Virus record (IMG/VR): IMGVR_UViG_3300023237_000720
Location: 1-29,927 of that record
Strand: one strand, 5' to 3'
DNA from: a virus
Length of the DNA: 29,927 nt
Position 1 is the stretch's first letter. Each line of letters opens with the position of its first letter. Positions 2,471-15,034 of this stretch are shown here, piece by piece. Under the pieces are notes generated by a model. That model saw only the letters and a list, made by a program, of their open reading frames with translations. It did no database searches and was not told where the DNA came from. The position numbers were made by a program, and so were the translations under genes.

Positions 2471-4501
2471 CTACTTAGTTTGCGCTCTAAAAATTCCGTC
2501 CCAGATCTCTAAGTCGTTAATGTCAGACTTTTCAAGTTCCGTAATACGCTCGCTCATTAACACATAATACTGTTCAAGTTCTCCTGAAAAGGCCAACTTA
2601 TTACCGCCAGCAATCCTCTTAGCTTCGTTCCAGTCTCTGTTTCTATATGCGTCGAGATACTCCTGATGTTTCTTTATCTCGACATCAAATGATGAAGTTA
2701 CAGGAGTGTATATTGTTACTGGATCTTCTTTGCCTTTAACAGCAATTAAGTCTAGTTCGATTAATTGTGTGTCGGTTACCGACTTTGCTGTTTCTTCACC
2801 AATGATTGTGATGACTCCGTACGATTTGGATTGGCCTTCAAGCCTGCTTCCAAGATTGACAGCATCACCGAGTACACTGTAATCAAACCTTTGATCAGAA
2901 CCCATATTACCCACGACGCAGGCACCAGTGTTAATACCAATACCAATATTAATAGGTAGTAGATTATCTTTGGATAGTTCTTCATTAAGTCGCCTAACTC
3001 CATCAACCATGTCTTGCGCCGCCAGTACTGCTTTTTGTTCATGACCTTCTATCTCCAGTGGCGCATTCCAGAACGCCATAATACAGTCTCCCATATACTT
3101 ATCTATGGTTCCCCTATGCTCCATAATTATGTTAGTCATGGGAGTTAAGAACTTATTAATAAGTCGTGTTAGACCTTGTGGATCTGTTTTATACTGTTCA
3201 CTAATAGGGGTAAATCCTCTGATATCACAAAACAAGAATGTCATGACTCTGGTAACACCACCTAACTGCATCTTCTCAGGATGCTTCTGTAATTCTGCTA
3301 CCAGCTCTTTACTGATGTAAGTTCCAAACTGTTTCTTAATCTGTTGCTTCTGATAAAATTCGCTTAAGAACTTAACTGTATATGCATGCACATAAGTTAA
3401 CACCAAGGCAAATATAATTGCTGTTATGTCAAACAATAGTCGTTGTTCTGTGTAATAGTATTGAGCCGCATAATAAATGCCTACAACAACCGCTATTACA
3501 GGCACAAAGCCATATGTCCAACTTGATATAAAAATAGCAAGCAAGCCTAATACTACAATTGCCAGTAGTTCTGCACCGTCTGCCCAATCAGCACGTACAA
3601 TGTTTACACCATTGAACATTGTACCTACTACTGCGGCTTGTACTTCATGTGGCCAACTGCCACCTAATGCTGTTGCTACAGGCTGGTTAGTACCTGCCGC
3701 TGTTGGGCCAATAATAACTACGCCTCCACCAAAATCTTCTGGCAGATTAGTTAGACTATGTTTATAACTTTGTTGGCTCCAGTCTATCCAGATACGTCCC
3801 AGTGCATCAGTAGTTATAGTACCAAAGGCTGGTATACGCATTTTCTCAACACCGTATTCAAACAGTTTGATCTGAAAGGTTGTGTCTCCTGCGGCTGATC
3901 TTAATATCTCTAACGGTACGCCTGGGTATAAGTTTTCGCCCACTGCGGCAACTAATGGAATGCGTCTAGTAACACCATCTATCTCTGGTAATGTGTTAGC
4001 AATACCAACACCGTATGCACGTTGTTCTAGCTCTTCAGTGTTTGCTATTATGCCAGGATAGTTGATAATTGTGTTCATGTACTCTGGATTTAAAATCACT
4101 GCACCTGGTTTCTTAGGTGTGTTTTTGCTCCATTGGCTAGGTACACTTGTTAGTATGACAGGATAAGACTCCATTGCCTCTGCTAGTGCTAGGTCCTGAT
4201 CTGATGCTTCTGGCATGAGAACATTTAACACAACCAGCCCTGCATTCCTGTTATATAGGTCTACAATTAAGTCTGCATAATAGTCTCTGGGCACGGGCCA
4301 TGCGCCTATTTCGGTTAGTGCAAGGTCGTCTATATTAACAGTGTGTATGTTATTTTGTACTGGTTCTTGGCTTGTAATTAGAGTATCGAAGTAACGTAGC
4401 CTAACACTTTCCACAAATCCTGGATCCGACATTTTAATATATGCGCATATTAATAATGTGATTATTGCTGTCCAGGGACTCAGCAATATTTTTTTGAACA
4501 T
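2471..4501 (-). CDS. CHASE2-domain class III adenylate cyclase
   Basis: A 676-residue membrane enzyme predicted to make cAMP from ATP. Order: N-terminal transmembrane anchor (about residues 8-24); extracytoplasmic CHASE2 sensor (about 25-300, with IDDLALTEIGAWPVPRDYY and the HEVQAAVVGTMFNG end motif); three membrane helices (about 305-375); cytoplasmic class III cyclase domain (about 415-590). Catalytic features look intact: metal Asp in FCDIRGFT (near 425), second metal Asp and adenine-recognising Lys in DKYMGD (near 467-470), Asp in RFDYSVLGD and the Asn/Arg transition-state pair in NLGSRLEG (near 545). The Lys/Asp pair indicates adenylate rather than guanylate cyclase. It is 7 bases downstream of a glycosyltransferase-like gene in the same operon. 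A complete CHASE2 cyclase is unexpected in a phage. The sensed signal is unknown. Confidence 0.93.
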   Translation of the reverse strand: MFKKILLSPWTAIITLLICAYIKMSDPGFVESVRLRYFDTLITSQEPVQNNIHTVNIDDLALTEIGAWPVPRDYYADLIVDLYNRNAGLVVLNVLMPEASDQDLALAEAMESYPVILTSVPSQWSKNTPKKPGAVILNPEYMNTIINYPGIIANTEELEQRAYGVGIANTLPEIDGVTRRIPLVAAVGENLYPGVPLEILRSAAGDTTFQIKLFEYGVEKMRIPAFGTITTDALGRIWIDWSQQSYKHSLTNLPEDFGGGVVIIGPTAAGTNQPVATALGGSWPHEVQAAVVGTMFNGVNIVRADWADGAELLAIVVLGLLAIFISSWTYGFVPVIAVVVGIYYAAQYYYTEQRLLFDITAIIFALVLTYVHAYTVKFLSEFYQKQQIKKQFGTYISKELVAELQKHPEKMQLGGVTRVMTFLFCDIRGFTPISEQYKTDPQGLTRLINKFLTPMTNIIMEHRGTIDKYMGDCIMAFWNAPLEIEGHEQKAVLAAQDMVDGVRRLNEELSKDNLLPINIGIGINTGACVVGNMGSDQRFDYSVLGDAVNLGSRLEGQSKSYGVITIIGEETAKSVTDTQLIELDLIAVKGKEDPVTIYTPVTSSFDVEIKKHQEYLDAYRNRDWNEAKRIAGGNKLAFSGELEQYYVLMSERITELEKSDINDLEIWDGIFRAQTK

Positions 4502-4508
4502 AACGTAT

Positions 4509-5630
4509 TTACTCTATGTTATCTATTTTTTGTAGCAACTTGTTAAGCATGGCTTCTTTGGTCTTTTTAATAAGGTCCATAAACATAAAAAAGTTATATT
4601 GTGTTATAAACATAACTTTTTCGTAGACTCCTGCAGGATCTTGTTTAGCTAGATATTCAACTTGGTCAAATGCTCTATCAAATCTTTTTCTAGGATCTGC
4701 TATGTCGTCATAACTTTCATCTATAACCGAGTCAAAAGTTTCAAATCCTAGACTTTTTATGAATCGTAACGTATGCTGTGGTGCAAACATTATAAACATA
4801 CGTTGCGCCATAAACATCTTAGCAGTCTTCTCTGTCAGGAAGAAAGGTCCAGGATTTGTGTCATCTGGGTTGTTGCCAAAACTTTCACAACATATACTGT
4901 AGTGTGTCTTTTCGTATATGTCCCAGGGTGTGACTTCACTTATTTGATGTGGTTCTAAATCTTGTGGTTGTTCTTCTGTAAAGTTTTTGCTTACGTAAGG
5001 CCACAGCAACTCTTTGCCATCTAGTGTTTTTCGTACATGATCGTACAAGTACTTAGGGTTGTCTCCCCAATGATTAATAAACGTGTCTCTATAGTTTACA
5101 ATAGAGTTTGAGAGTAAATCTGGACGCTGTTGTAAACGTGCCATTACATAACTACGATGCAATTTACGGGATCCCAATAACGCATCAAACAGAAACTCAC
5201 GCTTATTATAACTACTCACTTGAATAGAGTTTAGGTTACGATGGTGAAACATCCACCAAGGTCTGTATATAAAGTCGGGGTCTGTTAGTTCAGTTGTAAC
5301 CCCACCAGCCGCAACCAGATAGTTTTTAATTCCAGCAGGTTGAATGCATTCTTCTATAATATAGTCTTGGCTATGACATTCTATATCACTTAACACCACC
5401 AGATCAAACTTGCTAAAGTCGTATTTTTTAAACTTCTCTCTATACGTATAACTGCCTGGACAATTAAACAATGCAGGCATCATAGCAATCTTACACGGTT
5501 GTGCTAGTGCTTCTGTGTAATCATCAGTAAACTGCCAGTTTACGTGATCGTGGCCTAACCAGTCACTAGCAACATTTATTGCACTGGTTGGGGTAACAAA
5601 ATTAAATATTTTGTGTTCAGATATTTTCAA
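4509..5630 (-). CDS. Glycosyltransferase-like protein (GT10/fucosyltransferase-like C-terminal half)
   Basis: A 373-residue protein with a TTG start. The frame is closed just upstream by TGA, so no longer start is possible, and the TTG overlaps the stop of the cupin remnant (TTGA), hinting at coupled translation. The C-terminal half has the pattern E-S...F-L-T-E-K-T-A-K-M, then LGFETFDSVIDESYDDIADP, then R-F-D. This matches the nucleotide-sugar-binding half of GT10-like glycosyltransferases seen in many marine phages. The + strand gene at 11025 is a paralogue with the same motifs (LTEKIFKPI, YGFKTFDGFIDESYD). Expected role: transfer of a sugar to a phage or host glycan. Donor and acceptor cannot be told from the sequence. 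Confidence 0.65.
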   Translation of the reverse strand: MKISEHKIFNFVTPTSAINVASDWLGHDHVNWQFTDDYTEALAQPCKIAMMPALFNCPGSYTYREKFKKYDFSKFDLVVLSDIECHSQDYIIEECIQPAGIKNYLVAAGGVTTELTDPDFIYRPWWMFHHRNLNSIQVSSYNKREFLFDALLGSRKLHRSYVMARLQQRPDLLSNSIVNYRDTFINHWGDNPKYLYDHVRKTLDGKELLWPYVSKNFTEEQPQDLEPHQISEVTPWDIYEKTHYSICCESFGNNPDDTNPGPFFLTEKTAKMFMAQRMFIMFAPQHTLRFIKSLGFETFDSVIDESYDDIADPRKRFDRAFDQVEYLAKQDPAGVYEKVMFITQYNFFMFMDLIKKTKEAMLNKLLQKIDNIE

Positions 5631-5765: not shown

Positions 5766-5911
5766 ACTTCTCTGTCTTCTAGTTGTTGTACTATGCTGTC
5801 ACGTTGTGCATCTGTATAGCTAATCCAGTTGGCTATTTCTTCTTGTGTACGATTACAGCCCAAACAATAGCCATTTTCCATAACACAAATTTTCTGACAA
5901 GGTGATTGCAT
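5762..5911 (-). CDS. DUF1289 family mini-protein
   Basis: A 49-residue protein. It begins MQSPCQKICVMENGYCLGCN and continues with a segment of the form R-T-x-x-E-I-A-x-W, ending with a short acidic helix. This is the whole DUF1289 pattern: S-P-C-x-x-x-C, then C-L-G-C-x-R-T-x-x-E-I, then W-x-x-x-x-D-A-x-R. Four cysteines (5, 9, 16, 19) probably bind a metal. DUF1289 proteins are common in Proteobacteria; their role is unknown to me. The ATG overlaps the stop of the QueD-like gene (TAATG) and its own stop overlaps the ATG of the cupin remnant (ATGA), so it belongs to the same operon. Confidence 0.85.
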   Translation of the reverse strand: MQSPCQKICVMENGYCLGCNRTQEEIANWISYTDAQRDSIVQQLEDREV

Positions 5912-6411
5912 TACTCATACAAGTCCTCGTTCCATTCTCTGTGTCCCTCACGCCAAGCCATGTTGCTTTGTGTTTCACGTACTTCTACTCTGTAACACCA
6001 AAGTCTATCTGCTTCGCTTTGCCCCCACATGTCTGGGATATACACACCATTTACATATTTGTACAGTTGGTCTGCAAGGCCTTCGCAACCAAGTTTTGGT
6101 AAGATAGTTAGTTTAGCCAACTTCTTTGCTTGCAGTTGCTTGTACATTTCTATTTCTGGGTCGTCTTCAGCAACCAGTAGCGTATGGTCAAACTGATCCT
6201 GTAATATTTGCTTTAGTTCCGTTAATCCGCCGTAATCGGCAACCCAGTTTCTAACATCTAGGTCGTCTGTTCCAAAAAAGAAACGCATTGTAAACGCATA
6301 ACCGTGTATTACGTTGCAGTGACTGTCAGCTCTCCATTGTCTATATGCACACGGAAACTGATCAACGTATTCTTTTGTGCTCACGTACTTGTATTGTCTT
6401 GGTTCGTTCAT
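5911..6411 (-). CDS. QueD / 6-pyruvoyl-tetrahydropterin synthase-like protein
   Basis: A 166-residue member of the PTPS/QueD fold family, which in bacteria makes 6-carboxytetrahydropterin for preQ0/queuosine. Matching points are Cys32 with HGYAF (36-40), the WVADYGGL stretch with its Asp (59), FDHTLLV with the Asp-His pair (75-76), and the C-terminal Glu (VEVRET, near 146). Odd: two of the three usual zinc histidines appear replaced. AAHR of the bacterial enzyme is CAYR here, and HGH is HGY, so classical zinc-dependent chemistry may be lost or altered. Similar HGY proteins occur in cyanophages as I recall. No other queuosine or preQ0 genes lie in the window. It is the first gene of the operon leading to the cyclase, behind the promoters at 6435-6568. 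Confidence 0.75.
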   Translation of the reverse strand: MNEPRQYKYVSTKEYVDQFPCAYRQWRADSHCNVIHGYAFTMRFFFGTDDLDVRNWVADYGGLTELKQILQDQFDHTLLVAEDDPEIEMYKQLQAKKLAKLTILPKLGCEGLADQLYKYVNGVYIPDMWGQSEADRLWCYRVEVRETQSNMAWREGHREWNEDLYE

Positions 6412-6573: not shown

Positions 6574-7800
6574 TTAGTCGCCTTGTGTTACAGTCAATGA
6601 GCATCCTGCACTGGTATAGCATGTTCCGCTTGTTGTTGATTCATCACTCATACTATGTGGTAAACTATATGTTTTATCGTTGGTGCCGTTCTGATCTAGA
6701 CTAAATGTCCAACTACCACCGCTCTCTGTTAGTTCAACAGTAGCCGCATGGTCACCAGCACCTTGCTGTGTTATTGTAGCAGTATTGTTGTCACCAATTA
6801 AATCCAATTGTAGATAATGGTTGCCCCCATCTTTCTGAATCAGTGTTGCTGAGTTACTATCTCCGTTAACATCAATAAATGCTGTATGGTTCCCACTGCC
6901 TGTTTGAGTTAAGTCTAGTATATTACTGTCGCCTAAAATTTCAGCTTCTGTATAATGCCCATAGCTGGTTGCTGACGTACTAGCATCTTGATCTATGTCG
7001 ATGTCGTTAAGGTTTCCTGTAACATTTAGCAACAAAAGACTTGGTTCACCTGCCTGCGAAATAAAAATATCATTGCTATCACCTGTTATATTAATATCTA
7101 TATCGTTACTAGAGCCTGAACTTATAGCTGATCTATTAGAGTTTATTCTAGTTTGTTGTGCAGAAGTTGGCCCAGAAGAATATGATGGCGTTGCTGAAGA
7201 ACTACTCGATGTAGAAGTTGTACTGAGCCAACTTGTGGGTATGTTTGCTTGATTAGAATACTGATAATCAGTTAAACTGTAATTGATATCAAGTTCTGCA
7301 CCGCCTCCCCACTCGTACCACCAAACTGTAATTGGATATTCTTGCCCGCCCGTAAGTGTAATAGAACCTTGAGCATTCCAAGTGGCACCACCTTGTTGTT
7401 GCCAGTCCTGGATTACGTTAGTGCCATCTATGTTCATAAACACGCCATCATCTGCTCTTACACCAAAGTACACAGTTGTTGATACACCTGCTGTGCCTGG
7501 CCATGTGATGTATCCTGTTATTTCTAATGCTACATAATCTGAACGACCACTGTCTAATACACTACCCCAATTATACCCACTTATGCCTGACATCGTTCCT
7601 GTGCTGAGTACACTGCTTAGATAAGATGGACTTGAGTTCGATCCATCACTATTATAGCCTGCTACGTTATCGTAGTATGGAAATTCAAGACTGGGTGCAT
7701 ATGAGGTTATGTAATATGAGGTATAATCTAAATCTGCCCATGTAGGAGTAGCAACAAATATTAACCAACTAAAGAGTATTAAGACAAGTCTTTTAAACAT
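6574..7800 (-). CDS. Secreted PA14-domain protein with curlin-like repeats
   Basis: A 408-residue exported protein. A signal peptide (MFKRLVLILFSWLIFVATPT, cut after TWA) is followed by a PA14/GLEYA-like beta domain (about residues 75-180) with VYFGVRADDGVFMNIDGTNV and a late VWWYEWGGGAELDINY strand. This fold usually binds carbohydrate. A Ser/Thr-rich linker (about 190-225) leads to some six curlin-type repeats (for example ITGDSNDIFISQAG, ILGDSNILDLTQTG, LIGDNNTATITQQGAG), each a strand-Q-x-G-x-x-N unit as in CsgA/CsgB. The last residues are CSLTVTQGD. Its ATG overlaps the stop of the FecR gene (TAATG). Likely role: a surface amyloid-like adhesin or cap exported through CsgG. Acceptor sugar and location are unknown. 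Confidence 0.8.
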   Translation of the reverse strand: MFKRLVLILFSWLIFVATPTWADLDYTSYYITSYAPSLEFPYYDNVAGYNSDGSNSSPSYLSSVLSTGTMSGISGYNWGSVLDSGRSDYVALEITGYITWPGTAGVSTTVYFGVRADDGVFMNIDGTNVIQDWQQQGGATWNAQGSITLTGGQEYPITVWWYEWGGGAELDINYSLTDYQYSNQANIPTSWLSTTSTSSSSSATPSYSSGPTSAQQTRINSNRSAISSGSSNDIDINITGDSNDIFISQAGEPSLLLLNVTGNLNDIDIDQDASTSATSYGHYTEAEILGDSNILDLTQTGSGNHTAFIDVNGDSNSATLIQKDGGNHYLQLDLIGDNNTATITQQGAGDHAATVELTESGGSWTFSLDQNGTNDKTYSLPHSMSDESTTSGTCYTSAGCSLTVTQGD

Positions 7801-8897
7801 TATTGACTCTGTATAATAGTTATTTCTGTTCCTGAACCACCTTGAACTTGTATTTGAGCTGGGACGTCATCCTGTGTAATATTTACGTTGCCTTCCATAA
7901 CTCGTTCCAGACTTATCTCAGCAACATGAGGTGGTCTCTCACTTCTCATAAAAATCTCTTCTTCGTTTGCATACCATAATATCCAACTGTACTGTTGTAT
8001 TGTTGGTAGCGTCTCGTTTGTTTCCAATTGGTCTCTGTTTAAGTCCACTGTGGTCAAGTCCAGCATATTGCCTAAGAAATCAAAATCTAAGTAATTTATG
8101 TCAAGTTCGTAATTATTTGCTAGTTCATCTTCTTCGTCTAACTGGTTAGTGTCTAAATCATCAAATTTTAATAAGTCTTTGTCTAGTGGATCTTTACTGC
8201 GCTCTTGCTCTTCTTGAGCTATCCTAACTTCTTCTGGTGGACTAATAATAAGAAAATTGTCAATCAATGCTTCTGTAATGTTAACAATTGTTGGTTCAGT
8301 AGGCATTGAATCACTGCTAGTTACCAATGTAGCCTGAAATGCCTGATTCATAATAACAGCACCCACGTCTGTTAGAACTTCAATCTCCCCCACATAACAG
8401 TCTACTTCATTGTCAGTTGGGCAACTAGGTAGTAGAATAACAAGACTACGTCCTATCTCGTCTACAGTCATTGTGAAGTCTGTTCCTCGAACAGCAATAG
8501 TAGCAGTTGGTGTTTGAATGTTAACATTCTCAGCATTGTCTTTTGCTATTTTACCAGATGCGTAGCGTACTGTGCCTAACACTACTTTCATGCCTAGTTT
8601 ACCTGGCGTTTCACTCCCTGGATCGTAGATAAATTCATCTACTATTAATTTACTTTGTTCGATAATGCGGATTTTGGTGTTATCTGCAAAAGTTATGCCT
8701 ACTTTTGACTTTGCTGTCTGTATAACATCTTGCATAAAGATGTCAGCACCTTTTTCGCTAGGTAGTTTTGATTTTGCTCTGCTTATCTCCGCAGGCCCAG
8801 TTTGTTCTGTAACATTCCCTATACCTTTTGCAAATACTGTAGAGGATATAAGAAATGTTACAGCAAATAGAGTCCTACTGAACTGTGATGTCAACAT
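7800..8897 (-). CDS. Exported FecR-domain protein with a curlin-like C-terminal tail
   Basis: A 365-residue protein. The ATG at 8897 is preferred because it begins a clean signal peptide (MLTSQFSRTLFAVTFLISST, cut after VFA). A FecR domain follows (about residues 35-150): IRIIEQSKLIVDEFIYDPG, GMKVVLGTVRYASGKIA and TPTATIAVRGTDFTM are the hallmark stretches. The middle is acidic and low-complexity (many D, L, E, N). The last 35 residues read as curlin-like strands, VNITQDDVPAQIQVQGG then GTEITIIQSQ. FecR proteins of this kind are not the TonB regulators but periplasmic or cell-wall beta domains. It overlaps the curlin gene by 23 bases and the PA14-curlin gene by 3. It could anchor or nucleate the fibre. 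Its exact role is inference. Confidence 0.8.
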   Translation of the reverse strand: MLTSQFSRTLFAVTFLISSTVFAKGIGNVTEQTGPAEISRAKSKLPSEKGADIFMQDVIQTAKSKVGITFADNTKIRIIEQSKLIVDEFIYDPGSETPGKLGMKVVLGTVRYASGKIAKDNAENVNIQTPTATIAVRGTDFTMTVDEIGRSLVILLPSCPTDNEVDCYVGEIEVLTDVGAVIMNQAFQATLVTSSDSMPTEPTIVNITEALIDNFLIISPPEEVRIAQEEQERSKDPLDKDLLKFDDLDTNQLDEEDELANNYELDINYLDFDFLGNMLDLTTVDLNRDQLETNETLPTIQQYSWILWYANEEEIFMRSERPPHVAEISLERVMEGNVNITQDDVPAQIQVQGGSGTEITIIQSQ

Positions 8898-9516
8898 CGT
8901 TGTCTTGCCCGTCGATGTTAAGAATAACATTTGAACCTGTAACATCATTTAAGATGTCAACAGTATTAGCATCGCTTAGGTCTAACGAATCTGCTCCAAT
9001 AGTTACTGTGTTAGTTTGACTTGCACCTGTTGCTTCAATGTTAACAGCGTTGGTATCACCTGTTATCGAAATAGTATTTGAAGTTGTACTGTCAGTAATA
9101 CCGCCTGTACAAGTCATTGCAACCCCTGATGCACTGTCGTTAGATCCACAAACTGTTGCCCAGTTTGTATCACCCGTAATGTCAATATCAACAGTTGTAC
9201 TGGATGCACCGTCAACACTAACGTTAGTTTCGTTACTGCTACCCAGAACATCAATATCAACATTTGATGAAGTTGCGCTATTTTCTAATTCAATGTCTGC
9301 ATTATTCAAATTACCGTCTTGGGTAATACTTAATGTAATACTATCACCACTGAGTGTTGCGGCATCTCCCGACGAGTTTACTGTGTTAGTCCCGTTCTGT
9401 TGTATAACTGTGATTGTTGAACTATCACCTGCCTGATCAATATACACGTCATTCGCAAAAACCGTGCCACAAGTTATCAGTAATATTGCACCTACAATAG
9501 TTCTTAAAATTTTCAT
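8875..9516 (-). CDS. Curlin-repeat protein (CsgA/CsgB-like major subunit candidate)
   Basis: A 213-residue exported protein. The ATG at 9516 is chosen for its AGAGGAAAA ribosome site and the clean signal peptide MKILRTIVGAILLITCGTVF (cut after VFA). The mature part starts with a good curlin repeat (VYIDQAGDSSTITVIQQNG), then less regular strands: LSITQDGNLNNADIE, DIDITGDTNWATV, SITGDTNAVNIEATG, ending GQDNDVDITVQ. It is rich in D, N, S, T and G and poor in charged basic residues, as in secreted amyloids. One Cys pair (near VCGSNDSASGVAMTC) may form a disulfide. It lies between csgG and the FecR gene. I expect it to be the main CsgG substrate, more diverged than E. coli CsgA. Confidence 0.8.
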   Translation of the reverse strand: MKILRTIVGAILLITCGTVFANDVYIDQAGDSSTITVIQQNGTNTVNSSGDAATLSGDSITLSITQDGNLNNADIELENSATSSNVDIDVLGSSNETNVSVDGASSTTVDIDITGDTNWATVCGSNDSASGVAMTCTGGITDSTTSNTISITGDTNAVNIEATGASQTNTVTIGADSLDLSDANTVDILNDVTGSNVILNIDGQDNDVDITVQ

Positions 9517-9548
9517 TTTTCCTCTTCCCTTGGCCATGTAGCCACACA

Positions 9549-9569
9549 TATCAGATCATAGTGATGATA
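9549..9569 (-). other. Leader hairpin before the curlin gene
   Basis: On the minus strand TATCA-TCA-CTA-TGA-TC-TGATA can form an 8-bp stem with a TC bulge, in the 106-base gap between csgG and the curlin gene. The gap also contains TTTAAATA, a weak late-like box. The hairpin may process or stabilise the mRNA so that the substrate is made in a different amount from the pore. Low certainty. Confidence 0.3.
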
Positions 9570-9622
9570 TAACACTTATTGCTATTTAAATAATACTGCA
9601 CAAATAAATACATAGCACTATT

Positions 9623-10513
9623 TCAAAGTGGGTTCTTTTCTATTAGTTTTAGCTGTTTTTCATACTCTTCTTGTAACATTTCGACCTCTGACAGCTGTTT
9701 TGACACATTTTCTATTCTGTCAGATGATACAGTGACCTCTGAGTTTTTAAAGTCCCAGTACCCATTTGCTTTGCCTTGCATAATCATTTCTATTACTGCG
9801 GCGTCAATAACTCGTTGAACTGCAACTGTGGTAGGCTCGTTTGTGTAGTTACCAGCTTCTATCTCTACGGCACGTGTTCCCATATCAATAAATCTAAATG
9901 CTGATAGACTAGTGCCATAACTTATAATAGTCTTACTAGCAGTAACTGCCACTAATACCTCACCAGTCTGAGTAGAAATAACTCGCATCGCAACTGTTAC
10001 TACATCCTCCCTATACTCCTGGTGTAATCCTATTCCTAAATATCTTGCACCACTACCGCCTGTTTTTATATTACTATCGTACCCTACTATAGCACCTTCC
10101 AGTAAAATTCCTGCATATTTTAATGGCTTAAGTGTACTTTGATCGTCAACTGCTTGTCTTTGTTGCCTAATAATCTGTCTCTCTTTAGTTAGGTTGTCTA
10201 AGCCAACACGCTCAATAACCTTAAACCACTCACCGTTGCCTACTTCTTTAAGACTTTTAATTACCCATTCAACCGACCCCTGTGTTACTGCTGTAGATAT
10301 GTTTGAAAAACGCTCACTGGGTTTACGTTGACCTGTTTTGTCTTCAAACGAATAAACAGCAATGTATATAGGTCCTTGTGCAGGAGGCGGGATATTATAA
10401 AACATTTCGTCTTGGCTCTGTACAATTGTAGGTGCTTCAAAGGATGTTTTACCAGCGACAGTTGCACATCCTGAAACTAACAGTGTTGCCATTAACATCA
10501 TCAAGATTTTCAT
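9623..10513 (-). CDS. csgG: CsgG, curli secretion pore lipoprotein
   Basis: A 296-residue outer-membrane lipoprotein that forms the curli export channel. The N-terminus MKILMMLMATLLVSGCATV has a perfect lipobox (LVSGC), cut before the Cys. The body follows CsgG: IYIAVYSFEDKTGQRKPS, then the serine/threonine channel region ISTAVTQGSVEWVIKSL, WFKVIERVGLDNLTKERQII, YAGILLEGAIVGYDSNIKTG, the ARYLGIGLHQEYREDVVTVA beta pair, ISTQTGEVLVAV, and a final helix after NEPTTVAVQRVIDAAVIEMI. E. coli CsgG is 277 residues, so the length fits. It sits one base after csgF and upstream of three curlin-like substrates. All key regions look intact, so a working pore is likely. Confidence 0.96.
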   Translation of the reverse strand: MKILMMLMATLLVSGCATVAGKTSFEAPTIVQSQDEMFYNIPPPAQGPIYIAVYSFEDKTGQRKPSERFSNISTAVTQGSVEWVIKSLKEVGNGEWFKVIERVGLDNLTKERQIIRQQRQAVDDQSTLKPLKYAGILLEGAIVGYDSNIKTGGSGARYLGIGLHQEYREDVVTVAMRVISTQTGEVLVAVTASKTIISYGTSLSAFRFIDMGTRAVEIEAGNYTNEPTTVAVQRVIDAAVIEMIMQGKANGYWDFKNSEVTVSSDRIENVSKQLSEVEMLQEEYEKQLKLIEKNPL

Positions 10514-10514
10514 A

Positions 10515-10964
10515 TTAGAAAGAAAAGTCTCCTACAGGTACAGAAAATGTGGATAATATCGACCCATTACTGTCAGACACTGTTACAGATATAACACCAT
10601 CAATACGAGACCATGCTACTGTGTCACCAAACGGTGTTGTTACTATTCCTTCAGCATCAGCTGCCGCCGCCGCCTCACCAAAAAGGCTATCACTAATTTG
10701 CTTACTGAGCTGACTGTAGATCCTAGATTCCAGGTTATTCTGAAACTTCCAGGTATTTGTGGCTCGCAAATCTCGCTCTGATTCATCAGACGAAGCCTTT
10801 GCTTTTTTATCGTTTTCAGTTCTTCTATTAGACTCTAACTGTTCAATAGTTAGCACATGCGCACTATACCCGTTTCCTGTAAACGCAGGGCTCTTATAAT
10901 TAAACGTTAAATTGTCTGCAGATGCCACTGAGGCCATAAATAAAAACATTAATAGGTACTTCAC
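10515..10964 (-). CDS. csgF: CsgF, curli assembly factor
   Basis: A 149-residue periplasmic/surface protein. The GTG at 10964 is chosen because GAGGAT sits 5-6 bases upstream; an upstream in-frame TTG at 10976 lacks such a site. Signal peptide MKYLLMFLFMASVASA, then the mature start DNLTFNYKSPAFTGNGYSAH, which matches the CsgF peptide that threads into CsgG. The rest shows the usual helical middle with an E/K/S-rich stretch (about residues 50-75) and the beta C-terminus (DGVISVTVSDSNG). In E. coli CsgF helps couple secretion to nucleation at the surface. The gene opens the operon csgF-csgG-curlin-FecR-PA14. csgE, csgC and csgD are not seen nearby. Confidence 0.93.
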   Translation of the reverse strand: MKYLLMFLFMASVASADNLTFNYKSPAFTGNGYSAHVLTIEQLESNRRTENDKKAKASSDESERDLRATNTWKFQNNLESRIYSQLSKQISDSLFGEAAAAADAEGIVTTPFGDTVAWSRIDGVISVTVSDSNGSILSTFSVPVGDFSF

Positions 10965-11024: not shown

Positions 11025-12218
11025 ATGTTTAATATTGACCACCATTATGACATCCTATACGCCAACTTGTTATCAAATAAGCATTTACAAGGGCATGCTT
11101 TAAAGAGCTTTGATACGTGTGAATCAAATAACGACATGCTAAAGTATCCAGATTCTTCACTGTTTCAACTTGAAGATGTGTATTTTTATGACCAAGAACC
11201 TTTTGGGATTAGTACGCAGATACCGCAAAGTATGTATGACGTCGTGCGTAAACTACAAGATGGCAGGTGGGATTTAAAGTATAATATATGGGCAACTAGC
11301 GAGGTTAATAATCCCTTGTTAGATGCATTTTGTAACAAGAATAACTTAATTAAATGGTATTATTTTTATCATGCATTTGCTAGTCTTGACTGGTTTAGAA
11401 GTGCAAAATTTTCCCCCAGGGTCGATGTCAGTCAAGGAGCAAGTTATATAAGTTTAAATAACCTGTGCTCTGAATCAAGAATTTATAGATCGTTGTTTGT
11501 GGCAAAACTGTATGATCAAGGGCTGTTAGGGGAAGGTGTTGTTTCATACAATCTTAAGGACTATGACAATAACACATTTATTTCAGAGCAAGATAAAAAA
11601 CTTATTAAAAAGATGTCAGAGCGTAGTCCCACTTTTAGGATACAAAAGACCAATTACCTACGTGACAATGCAAGTGCTGAACTAGAGTACGATCTCTGGA
11701 CAAGTGGTTTTTGGCATATAGTCAGTGAGACCTGCTTTTACGAAAAAACAAATCATCTTACCGAAAAAATATTTAAACCTATCGTTGCTAGACAACCGTT
11801 TATGCTATTAGGCTGTACAGGCAACTTAGAGTACTTACGTTCATATGGTTTTAAGACATTTGACGGATTTATTGATGAGAGTTACGATACAGAAACAGAT
11901 CCCGCTATTAGATTAGATATGGTAATTAAACAGATAAAAAGTATATGTAACTTGTCAGCAACAGACAAACGTAGGATGTATCTAGAAATGTTGCCTATTT
12001 TAGATTATAACTTTAATCACTTTTATAATACATTATTTGATATATGTTGGCAAGAGCTATTGGATAACTTTGAAATAGCGGATAATCTGTTACAGAATAA
12101 GCAACAGCATTATGCAAGACACCCTGACTTAAAAGTAATAGATGGTGAACTGGGGAGTGTTAACACATTACCAGGTAATGCAGGGAAACAGTTTAGAGAA
12201 AGATGGAAATTTAAATAG
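11025..12218 (+). CDS. Glycosyltransferase-like protein, paralogue of the 4509-5630 gene
   Basis: A 397-residue cytosolic protein on the opposite strand from its neighbours, starting 60 bases from csgF. No clear ribosome site precedes the ATG. The C-terminal half carries GT10-like motifs: SETCFYEKTNHLTEKIFKPI, an aromatic/Pro turn QPFMLLG, then YGFKTFDGFIDESYDTETDP and RLDMVIKQI, the same order as in the 373-residue protein at 4509-5630. The N-terminal half is diverged (YFYDQEPFGISTQIPQSMYD). Together they would be two glycosyltransferases of related type, perhaps for different acceptors. Its last 8 bases overlap the end of the convergent gene at 12211. Confidence 0.65.
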   Translation: MFNIDHHYDILYANLLSNKHLQGHALKSFDTCESNNDMLKYPDSSLFQLEDVYFYDQEPFGISTQIPQSMYDVVRKLQDGRWDLKYNIWATSEVNNPLLDAFCNKNNLIKWYYFYHAFASLDWFRSAKFSPRVDVSQGASYISLNNLCSESRIYRSLFVAKLYDQGLLGEGVVSYNLKDYDNNTFISEQDKKLIKKMSERSPTFRIQKTNYLRDNASAELEYDLWTSGFWHIVSETCFYEKTNHLTEKIFKPIVARQPFMLLGCTGNLEYLRSYGFKTFDGFIDESYDTETDPAIRLDMVIKQIKSICNLSATDKRRMYLEMLPILDYNFNHFYNTLFDICWQELLDNFEIADNLLQNKQQHYARHPDLKVIDGELGSVNTLPGNAGKQFRERWKFK

Positions 12219-13598: not shown

Positions 13599-14122
13599 AC
13601 ATTTCCATAGAATATAGGTTCTTCAGGTAATTGCCTTATTAAACATACTCTAATAGACTCTAAGTTTTCAACACTGTGTATCTCCTGTACTGATAACTTA
13701 TACCATTTATCACGCTTTAATACTTTAGAATACACTAGTTCTATCTCGTCTCTGGGTACTGCTTTAATTGGTAGATATTGTTTATCTAACAATTTTTTAT
13801 AAAAACAAGTACTAACATTATCCCCACCAGGATCAATAATATACGATATAGTAAAGTCTCTATGGTCGTCTCTGTGAGGCACAAGATAGGAACCTTTTTC
13901 CAGTATCTGTATTATCCAGTTAAACTTGTCCTGTCCATTATCTTTAAACCACGTTGTTTTAAGACGAGACAAATCCACGTTGTAAATTTTAAACGTTGCC
14001 ACATTACTGAACTCTGGATCAAACTTATAAGAGTATATACCGGTATCTGGATTTGTTTGTAACAGTTCTGATATTACTTCCTTAGGTATACTGGGGATAT
14101 CTAATTGCTCAATATACATCAT
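13583..14122 (-). CDS. 2-oxoglutarate-Fe(II) oxygenase-like protein
   Basis: A 179-residue protein with the double-stranded beta-helix ligand pattern. VPHRDDHRDF gives H83-x-D85 for iron, EIHSVENLESIRV gives distal H149 and the 2-oxoglutarate-binding R158, and FTISYIIDPGG sits between them as the core strand. This is close to the aspartyl/asparaginyl hydroxylase-like and phage 2OG-Fe(II) proteins that are common in marine phages. Substrate unknown; nucleic acid, peptide or small molecule are all possible. It overlaps the previous gene by 14 bases. It begins with two ATG codons in a row. Confidence 0.75.
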   Translation of the reverse strand: MMYIEQLDIPSIPKEVISELLQTNPDTGIYSYKFDPEFSNVATFKIYNVDLSRLKTTWFKDNGQDKFNWIIQILEKGSYLVPHRDDHRDFTISYIIDPGGDNVSTCFYKKLLDKQYLPIKAVPRDEIELVYSKVLKRDKWYKLSVQEIHSVENLESIRVCLIRQLPEEPIFYGNVPISK

Positions 14123-14444
14123 CAGATGAATTCCCCGCCTCTGTTAGTATGTGTTTATAATAACTGTCTAGTTCGCCTTTAAATTTCCCCATCAGATGAC
14201 TTATGGCTTGTTCACAAAAACTATAATCCTGTTTAATATGGTTCTTAACCACCTCTCTGTGTAGACCACACCATTCTTCTAGACTTGATATTTCTTGCAA
14301 TGGTACTTTATCCATGTCTATAATAACGTGAGGTTCCACTGTGACAGTTTTTTCTCCCTCTGTTTGTGTGATTGGGGGTAACGGTAATACTGTGTAAGTT
14401 TCCGCTAACTTGTCTGCCGATTCCTTAGTAAAAACTACATTCAT
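14109..14444 (-). CDS. Unknown phage protein
   Basis: A 111-residue protein. The start at 14444 forms an ATGA overlap with the stop of the upstream gene, and AAAAGGCGC precedes it. It begins MNVVFTKESADKLAETYTVL and continues with a Pro-rich loop, then acidic helices (QEISSLEEWCGLHREVVKNH). No family is recognised. It is soluble with no export signal. It sits in an operon with the signal-anchored protein upstream and the oxygenase-like protein downstream. The ending is rich in S, D and N. Confidence 0.65.
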   Translation of the reverse strand: MNVVFTKESADKLAETYTVLPLPPITQTEGEKTVTVEPHVIIDMDKVPLQEISSLEEWCGLHREVVKNHIKQDYSFCEQAISHLMGKFKGELDSYYKHILTEAGNSSDDVY

Positions 14445-15034
14445 GCGCCTTTTCCTATCTGTACATCTTCTATTGAAGCACCATGACATGCCACCGCTTT
14501 CATTGCCCATGCAATACTGCCTTTGGCTTTAGCAAAACTCCTTGCTTGTCCAGTTTCATAAATTGTTTGTGTTCTGATAACCCAGTCTTTGTCAACATAA
14601 TAATCTCGCAAAGGTTGCACTAGCCCACTTGAGCACTCAATAGTTGCTTCACTAACTACTTTGATAACACCCACGGCGTATCCTGGTATTACTTTTGGAC
14701 CATCTGTAAATTCAAACATTACCCAAACGTGTCTATATATTGTGACTTTCTCAATTTTATCTATGTTAAGATACAATCGTCTATTATCTACATGACCCAC
14801 TTGTCGCCAGCCTTTGGTGTCGTTCTCCAGTTGGCCGTATCTACTGGTAGGGTGTGGGGTAATATCTAATATGTCACCTGTTAGTTCCGTCCCATCTTCT
14901 AATTGAAGAGGGTTATCTTCTGTGTACTCTTGTGCCAACACTGACGTAGTAATTAACCAGCCAATAAACATTAACGCTGATATAAAAAATGCGATTAACA
15001 GTGCAAATCCAACTTTCTTTTGCGACTTAGTCAT
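14441..15034 (-). CDS. Exported or membrane-anchored protein, surface-adhesin-E-like pattern
   Basis: A 197-residue protein. The N-terminus has a basic start and a long hydrophobic stretch (FALLIAFFISALMFIGWLIT) ending TTSVLA-QEY, which suits a cleaved signal peptide or an anchor. The mature part has GWRQVGHVDNRRLYLNIDKI and YRHVWVMFEFTDGP strands and paired cysteines near 134 and 184. A Tyr-x-Asp strand followed by a V-W-V strand recalls the surface-adhesin-E domain, but the match is weak. It is probably periplasmic. It lies 28 bases after the exonuclease gene, in a short AT-rich gap that contains no clear promoter. Confidence 0.6.
   Translation of the reverse strand: MTKSQKKVGFALLIAFFISALMFIGWLITTSVLAQEYTEDNPLQLEDGTELTGDILDITPHPTSRYGQLENDTKGWRQVGHVDNRRLYLNIDKIEKVTIYRHVWVMFEFTDGPKVIPGYAVGVIKVVSEATIECSSGLVQPLRDYYVDKDWVIRTQTIYETGQARSFAKAKGSIAWAMKAVACHGASIEDVQIGKGA

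Follow-up and report, generated by a model that had tools for sequence, protein, structure and literature searches.

A Curli-Type Secretion Locus in Viral DNA

We analyzed a 29,927-nucleotide stretch of viral DNA (the window; positions 1 to 29,927 of IMG/VR record IMGVR_UViG_3300023237_000720) that carries a type VIII (curli) secretion locus. Five genes, from csgF to a curlin with an N-terminal PA14 domain, form one compact block on the minus strand, and a gene for a CHASE2-domain adenylate cyclase lies beyond them, separated from the last curlin gene in the window by queD and one gene without an assigned function. The features are as follows:

10515..10964, minus strand: csgF, exported periplasmic or surface partner of the CsgG pore (Pfam CsgF, 1.4e-13; phrog_35372, 9e-37)
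9623..10513, minus strand: csgG, outer-membrane lipoprotein pore (Pfam CsgG, 1.1e-54; lipobox LVSGC; solved CsgG, 2.7e-65)
8875..9516 (open reading frame to 9549), minus strand: curlin 1, plain curlin-type subunit with a signal peptide (by family: Curlin_rpt, 8c50, 8enq)
7800..8897, minus strand: FecR-domain protein, with signal peptide, FecR fold, helical linker, and C-terminal beta domain (Pfam FecR, 3.6e-10; structure model)
7803..7982, minus strand: C-terminal part of the FecR protein (residues 306-365), a curlin-like domain (conserved residues; hhalign)
6574..7800, minus strand: curlin 2, the PA14-curlin (Pfam PA14, 2.6e-10, and Curlin_rpt, 2.6e-11; structure model; head-swap junction at residue 201)
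about 7255-7542, minus strand: PA14 head of curlin 2, residues 87-182
about 6688-7107, minus strand: solenoid tail of curlin 2, residues 232-371
2471..4501, minus strand: CHASE2 adenylate cyclase, part of the conserved locus (Pfam CHASE2, 2.4e-32, and Guanylate_cyc, 4.1e-18)

The five-gene block had been described in an initial annotation made from the sequence alone, and its genes, strand, and coordinates are borne out by the open reading frames, by Pfam, and by the gene order in relatives (see below). The end point given there, 10964, is the likely true start of CsgF, a GTG with GAGGA just 5′ of it; the longer reading frame (TTG, to 10976) starts within the ribosome-binding site. The extent of the locus, however, had been drawn too narrowly, as the CHASE2 cyclase was left out, yet belongs to the same conserved locus.

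The components by which type VIII secretion is recognized, that is, a CsgG lipoprotein pore, CsgF, and a curlin-repeat substrate, are all present. Against the PDB, the CsgG family profile matches solved CsgG with E = 2.7e-65, in keeping with the CsgG-like channel that had been read from the sequence. In a phage subgroup, about 2 kb of extra sequence lies between csgF and csgG (L097, 2586-5093; L100, 6284-8622; L103, 6132-8648). A csgG-like gene (39.5% identity) is also found in OR851715.1, a 1.5 kb record labeled Salmonella phage S.Kent 1-2-1, which may be host DNA.

The locus is strongly conserved. Two scans of IMG/VR, in which hundreds of contigs were matched, provided 160 loci (the top 80 from each, which tilts the sample toward close relatives). 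In 28/28 distinct csgG-anchored loci with enough flanking sequence, csgG is accompanied by csgF, curlin, FecR, second curlin, and cyclase genes, and the gene order is likewise kept. Among the FecR-anchored loci with csgG (n = 41; the presence of FecR in 41/41 is by construction), csgF and curlin are found in 41 each, the cyclase in 40, and the second curlin in 23; in some phages without the second curlin (L128, L129, and L130), FecR stands immediately before the cyclase.

Curlin Subunits: A Plain Curlin and One with an Exchangeable Head

Taken by itself, the curlin 1 protein of the window has no significant Pfam match (Curlin_rpt, E = 0.85), and it is through its family that it is recognized: a Curlin_rpt match is found in 39/51 family members, and the family profile matches solved curli fibers (8c50, 2.4e-14; E. 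coli CsgA 8enq, 1.8e-5). The curlin 2 family profile matches solved curli fibers as well. When Pfam was run on 40 curlin 2 representatives, curlin repeats were detected in 32, PA14 in 7, and F5/8 type C domains in 4. The structure model of curlin 2 (alignments for the models excluded rows from annotated phage records) has a partial PA14 sandwich, with residues before about 87 poorly modeled, and a tail in which 12 strands of 6-8 residues each (residues 232-371, about six curlin repeats) form a solenoid.

Comparison with the nearest relative of the window, L086 (80% identical in FecR), separates the two parts of curlin 2. From window residue 201 on, 156/208 aligned residues are identical (75%), and between the heads the alignment is no better than with shuffled sequence. 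By sequence comparison, curlin 2 thus combines a conserved curlin tail with swappable parts at the N terminus: a PA14 head, an F5/8 type C head, another head, or none at all. Single-linkage clustering of the heads merged unlike ones and was not used. Two cysteines near the C terminus, C394 and C400, are invariant in 40 representatives, which suggests a disulfide at the end of the curlin tail.

Among the solved structures closest to the PA14 head (Foldseek) are the Flo and Epa lectins and, from a Marinomonas adhesin, a sugar-bound PA14 domain. An Asp-Asp-Gly motif is found in 14/14 PA14 heads and aligns with that of the adhesin PA14 domain 6m8m. In PA14 lectins, this motif mediates calcium and sugar binding, and the curlin 2 head would be expected to bind sugar in the same way.

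The FecR Protein and Its Pairing with a CHASE2 Cyclase

The FecR protein begins with a signal peptide that is followed directly by the FecR domain (Met18 of the open reading frame is the likely start, from comparison with L086). Its model (predicted local distance difference test score, pLDDT, 85) has a FecR-like fold, with the periplasmic part of PupR and a Bacteroidetes anti-sigma homologue as the closest structures, then a low-confidence helical linker and a high-confidence six-strand C-terminal domain. The last strands of this domain read xNxxQD...GGxxxIxIxQ; the final Gln (Gln363) is invariant in 51 representatives, and Q342, I359, and I361 are conserved to at least 90%. An ending of the form hydrophobic-x-hydrophobic-x-Gln is shared by FecR (114/115), curlin 1 (102/117), and curlin 2 (60/76), compared with 21/974 other open reading frames and 0/121 CsgG proteins, counts that include related, non-independent sequences and a motif defined after inspection.

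Using hhalign, the FecR tail aligns to the C-terminal end of curlin 1 with a probability of 40.6 and a score of 27.1. Among the controls, the best of 20 column shuffles scored 12.2 and the reversed profile 12.7; FecR segments located before the tail did not exceed 14.0, and segments entering the tail scored at least 16.3. Because the tail lies outside the reach of Pfam and PDB detection, the claim is limited to this profile comparison with its controls and to the conserved motif, which together make the FecR C terminus curlin-like rather than a proven curlin. All three proteins downstream of csgG had initially been annotated as curlin-like: the PA14 fusion is confirmed by Pfam and the plain curlin by its family only, and in FecR the resemblance is limited to the C-terminal part, with no Pfam match. 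The profile search proposed there detects CsgG, CsgF, FecR, PA14, and the curlin repeats of the PA14 protein, and gives no significant match for the curlin 1 of the window by itself and no curlin match in FecR. As substrate candidates the downstream proteins hold up well, with signal peptides, curlin homology, a beta-solenoid model, and co-occurrence with csgG; neither of the outcomes named beforehand as speaking against this, a missing solenoid and separation from csgG in relatives, was seen.

In the cyclase, the metal-binding, base-specifying, and transition-state residues of class III adenylate cyclases (D426, K468, D472, D546, and R553) are invariant in 89/89 distinct proteins, so that the enzyme should make cyclic AMP (cAMP). 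Bacteria that lack curli also have FecR genes next to CHASE2 cyclase genes, within about 100 bases in L186, L189, L196, and L198 and within 1 kb in L172 and L173, and a biofilm operon of Burkholderia pairs a FecR-LysM protein with a CHASE2 histidine kinase (PMC5192318). Given these bacterial neighbors and the Burkholderia operon, it is reasonable to infer that FecR is the ligand of the CHASE2 domain. The Burkholderia operon resembles the window in placing an exported FecR-domain protein beside a CHASE2 sensor and in its link to biofilm, but its output is a kinase instead of a cyclase and no curli genes are described in it.

The last ∼100 residues of the CHASE2 cyclase family are matched (3.4e-15) by a small protein encoded at 14109-14510 on the minus strand of the window. 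This protein is found again close to the operon in L086, L095, L107, L127, L128, L131, L133, L147, and L150; it is possibly a regulator or a split-off domain.

Carrier Phage and Distribution

The window corresponds to a segment of a 289,070-base contig, with 100% identity over all 29,927 bases. In this contig, tblastn detects T4-type TerL, portal, prohead protease, major capsid protein, sheath, polymerase, clamp loader, gp46/47, UvsW, and gp55, in agreement with the phage origin initially proposed. The T4-type proteins are only about 26-39% identical to those of Pelagibacter phage HTVC008M (TerL 33.5%, major capsid protein 35%, portal 32%). Pelagimyophages (the HTVC008M group) have 140-150 kb genomes and close kinship in their structural genes, whereas the contig here is 289 kb long. 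Judged by these proteins, the source virus is a T4-like jumbo phage only remotely related to the pelagimyophages. csgG is also found in contigs of 286, 330, 337, 338, and 344 kb, and carriers of the locus span contigs of 4 to 344 kb.

In bacteria, a 705 kb Hyphomonas contig carries csgF-csgG-curlin-FecR-cyclase among metabolic genes. In five further csgG loci from alphaproteobacteria, curlins are present but FecR and the cyclase are not, within the 13-15 kb examined; an alphaproteobacterial source of the phage curli genes has already been proposed (PMC9599517). Operon-bearing contigs from metagenome-assembled genomes labeled Flavobacteriaceae, Rhodobacteraceae, Pirellulales, or Pelagibacter (L164-L168 and L170) are 3-36 kb pieces; we regarded them as possible phage contamination and did not count these bacteria as hosts.

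Proposed Function

Although curli operons occur widely in phages, three published papers have not settled what they are for. From the observed gene content, homology, order, conservation, and structure models, we infer secretion, fiber formation, sugar binding, contact between FecR and CHASE2, and a benefit to the phage, as follows. The T4-like jumbo phage would encode a self-contained curli secretion locus; during infection, CsgG and CsgF would form an outer-membrane pore for two curlin-type subunits, which, once exported, would assemble on the infected cell, one of them plain and the other bearing a PA14 head on its solenoid tail. The FecR protein would be an exported partner and not an anti-sigma regulator, its curlin-like end binding curlin subunits or the fiber base and its FecR part probably serving as the ligand of the CHASE2 domain of the cyclase, such that the status of curli in the envelope is converted into cAMP. 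The most likely benefit would be that the infected cell uses a lectin-bearing amyloid to attach itself to other cells or glycan surfaces; that the sugar-binding heads are exchangeable suggests that the target of adhesion varies. We give this reading as a whole, i.e., secretion of a lectin-headed amyloid for adhesion together with a FecR/CHASE2/cAMP envelope sensor, a probability of about 0.5.

Several observations weigh against it. PA14 heads are found in 12/76 distinct curlin 2 proteins (counted, like the other PA14 heads, with a trimmed-domain profile, as an iterated profile had drifted into the curlin repeats), and about 30 of the 76 have no long head at all. The hhalign probability for the FecR tail is only 41%; neither the FecR protein nor its relatives have a Pfam or PDB profile match to curlin; and the terminal Gln is missing from the FecR of the Hyphomonas locus, the only counterpart in bacteria that has this layout. 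Cultures infected with the Methylophilales phage Melnitz, a phage that lacks the PA14 head, did not clump (PMC9004378), and a fiber, secretion, or binding has never been observed by anyone. Finally, no CsgE was found in eight phage records (an E. coli control was positive), in line with the absence initially noted for CsgE, CsgC, and CsgD, the latter two of which were not searched for; the CsgE plug is not universal and, according to PMC7029224, is dispensable in E. coli.

A more specific version is tentative and, in our view, rather unlikely: a closed circuit in which the FecR tail monitors or caps curlin in the envelope and activates the CHASE2 cyclase, cAMP reports fiber assembly or contact, and the lectin head sets the adhesion target. 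If true, this would amount to a phage-run organelle for adhesion and contact sensing.

A different benefit from the same anatomy is superinfection exclusion, proposed previously (PMC9599517) and in the initial annotation: the secreted amyloid would coat the infected cell and hide its receptors from rival phages, with the head decorating the cell's own glycans. Phages do compete for hosts, and exchangeable heads could track host surface glycans; the anatomy does not tell exclusion and adhesion apart. There is no direct evidence for a coat of this kind, however, and one formed late would be of little help if lysis soon follows, which leaves exclusion possible but doubtful.

It is improbable that the curlins are incidental and that CsgG and CsgF serve as an uptake channel (PMC7029224) or control the timing of lysis as a gated pore or pinholin (PMC9004378). 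The models of the Melnitz authors, the absence of clumping, and the missing CsgE plug agree with such a pore, but a bare pore needs none of the curlin, FecR, and cyclase genes that accompany csgG in all of the flanked csgG-anchored loci, and the curlin repeats are conserved. The pure lysis pore considered in the initial annotation is likewise less likely, because curlins constantly accompany csgG.

Very improbable is a role of FecR in regulating transcription of the locus through a sigma factor (PMC9599517). The fold does match the periplasmic domain of PupR, and the periplasmic domain expected for FecI/FecR signaling is present, but the cytoplasmic anti-sigma part and the preceding membrane helix are lacking and the protein has a conserved curlin-like end. 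Across eight phage records, no extracytoplasmic function (ECF) sigma domain (Sigma70_r4_2) exceeded the cut-off; the 289 kb contig has a single weak match, about 236 kb from the locus. We rejected this role on the anatomy of the protein and this lack of above-cut-off ECF sigma domains. FecR as the exported, curlin-tailed partner of a CHASE2 cyclase would replace the published regulator idea, and it predicts a measurable cAMP response.

That the locus is a non-functional passenger from an alphaproteobacterium, as the Hyphomonas chromosome with the same layout might suggest, is scarcely credible in view of its spread across 4-344 kb contigs and phages with only 33-35% TerL and major capsid protein identity, its intact frames, the catalytic conservation in 89/89 cyclases, and the expression of phage curli loci in metatranscriptomes (PMC9599517).

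Relation to Known Systems

Phage curli loci that include their own substrates have been described before. csgF and csgG were reported in pelagimyophages in 2020, together with a "sibling capture" idea (PMC7029224), and in the same year curli genes were described in a T4-like virus assigned to Bacteroidetes (PMC7198788). In 2022, curlins, FecR, and cyclase were named in podo- and myophages, with proposed roles in aggregation, exclusion, and import, and the pelagiphage order csgF-csgG-curlin-FecR-curlin-adenylate cyclase was published (PMC9599517). Two of the roles put forward in the initial annotation, blocking superinfection and gluing cells together, had therefore been suggested before. The window shares this order, and HTVC008M (KC465899) likewise has a PA14-curlin, the unnamed gene AGE60352. 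The initial statement that phage csgG and csgF usually come without substrates therefore does not stand. The carrier differs, being a 289 kb T4-like phage here, and in the window, unlike in the pelagiphage modules, queD and another gene lie between curlin 2 and the cyclase. Both pelagiphage papers (PMC9599517 and PMC7029224) take FecR as a regulator and leave PA14 unmentioned in the main text. Melnitz, for which a lysis pore was proposed in 2022 and whose authors report no csgA or csgB (PMC9004378), has csgF, csgG, curlin, FecR, curlin, and cyclase in the same order, but its second curlin lacks the PA14 head.

With bacterial curli (E. coli csg; Pontibacter 8c50), the locus has the CsgG pore, CsgF, and curlin-repeat subunits in common; in contrast, CsgE is not found, FecR and the CHASE2 cyclase are added, and a curlin is fused to a lectin head. 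The head has the PA14 fold and Asp-Asp-Gly motif of PA14 lectin adhesins (the Marinomonas RTX adhesin, Flo5, and Epa1), but it sits on a curlin solenoid tail and is encoded with a CsgG pore.

Thus, the observation made in the initial annotation is confirmed, its interpretation is partly supported, and its novelty was overstated. PA14 or exchangeable heads, the FecR tail, and jumbo phages with curli are unmentioned in the main texts of the literature searched (supplements lay outside the search), and the sugar-binding head, the curlin-like FecR tail, and the occurrence in giant phages appear unreported. The most useful additions are the head-swapping, putatively lectin-bearing curlin and the predicted exported, curlin-tailed FecR protein next to an apparently intact CHASE2 cyclase. 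Occurrence of the locus in 286-344 kb contigs means that a wider range of phages may re-coat the cells they infect.

Neighboring Genes

A promoter and terminator scan of the window gave results near chance level, and the T4 late promoter TATAAATA has one match in the window, below the chance expectation, with none upstream of csgF. The QueD-like gene inserted between curlin 2 and the cyclase (5911-6411, minus strand) matches Pfam PTPS (2.3e-13) and phrog_2389 (4.9e-34). The operon is flanked by genes for two proteins (4509-5630, minus strand, and 11025-12218, plus strand) that have no match in Pfam, PHROG, or NCBIfam; they are distantly related to each other (BLASTP, 5e-14) and share the C-terminal motif LTEK...GF.TFD..IDESYD.

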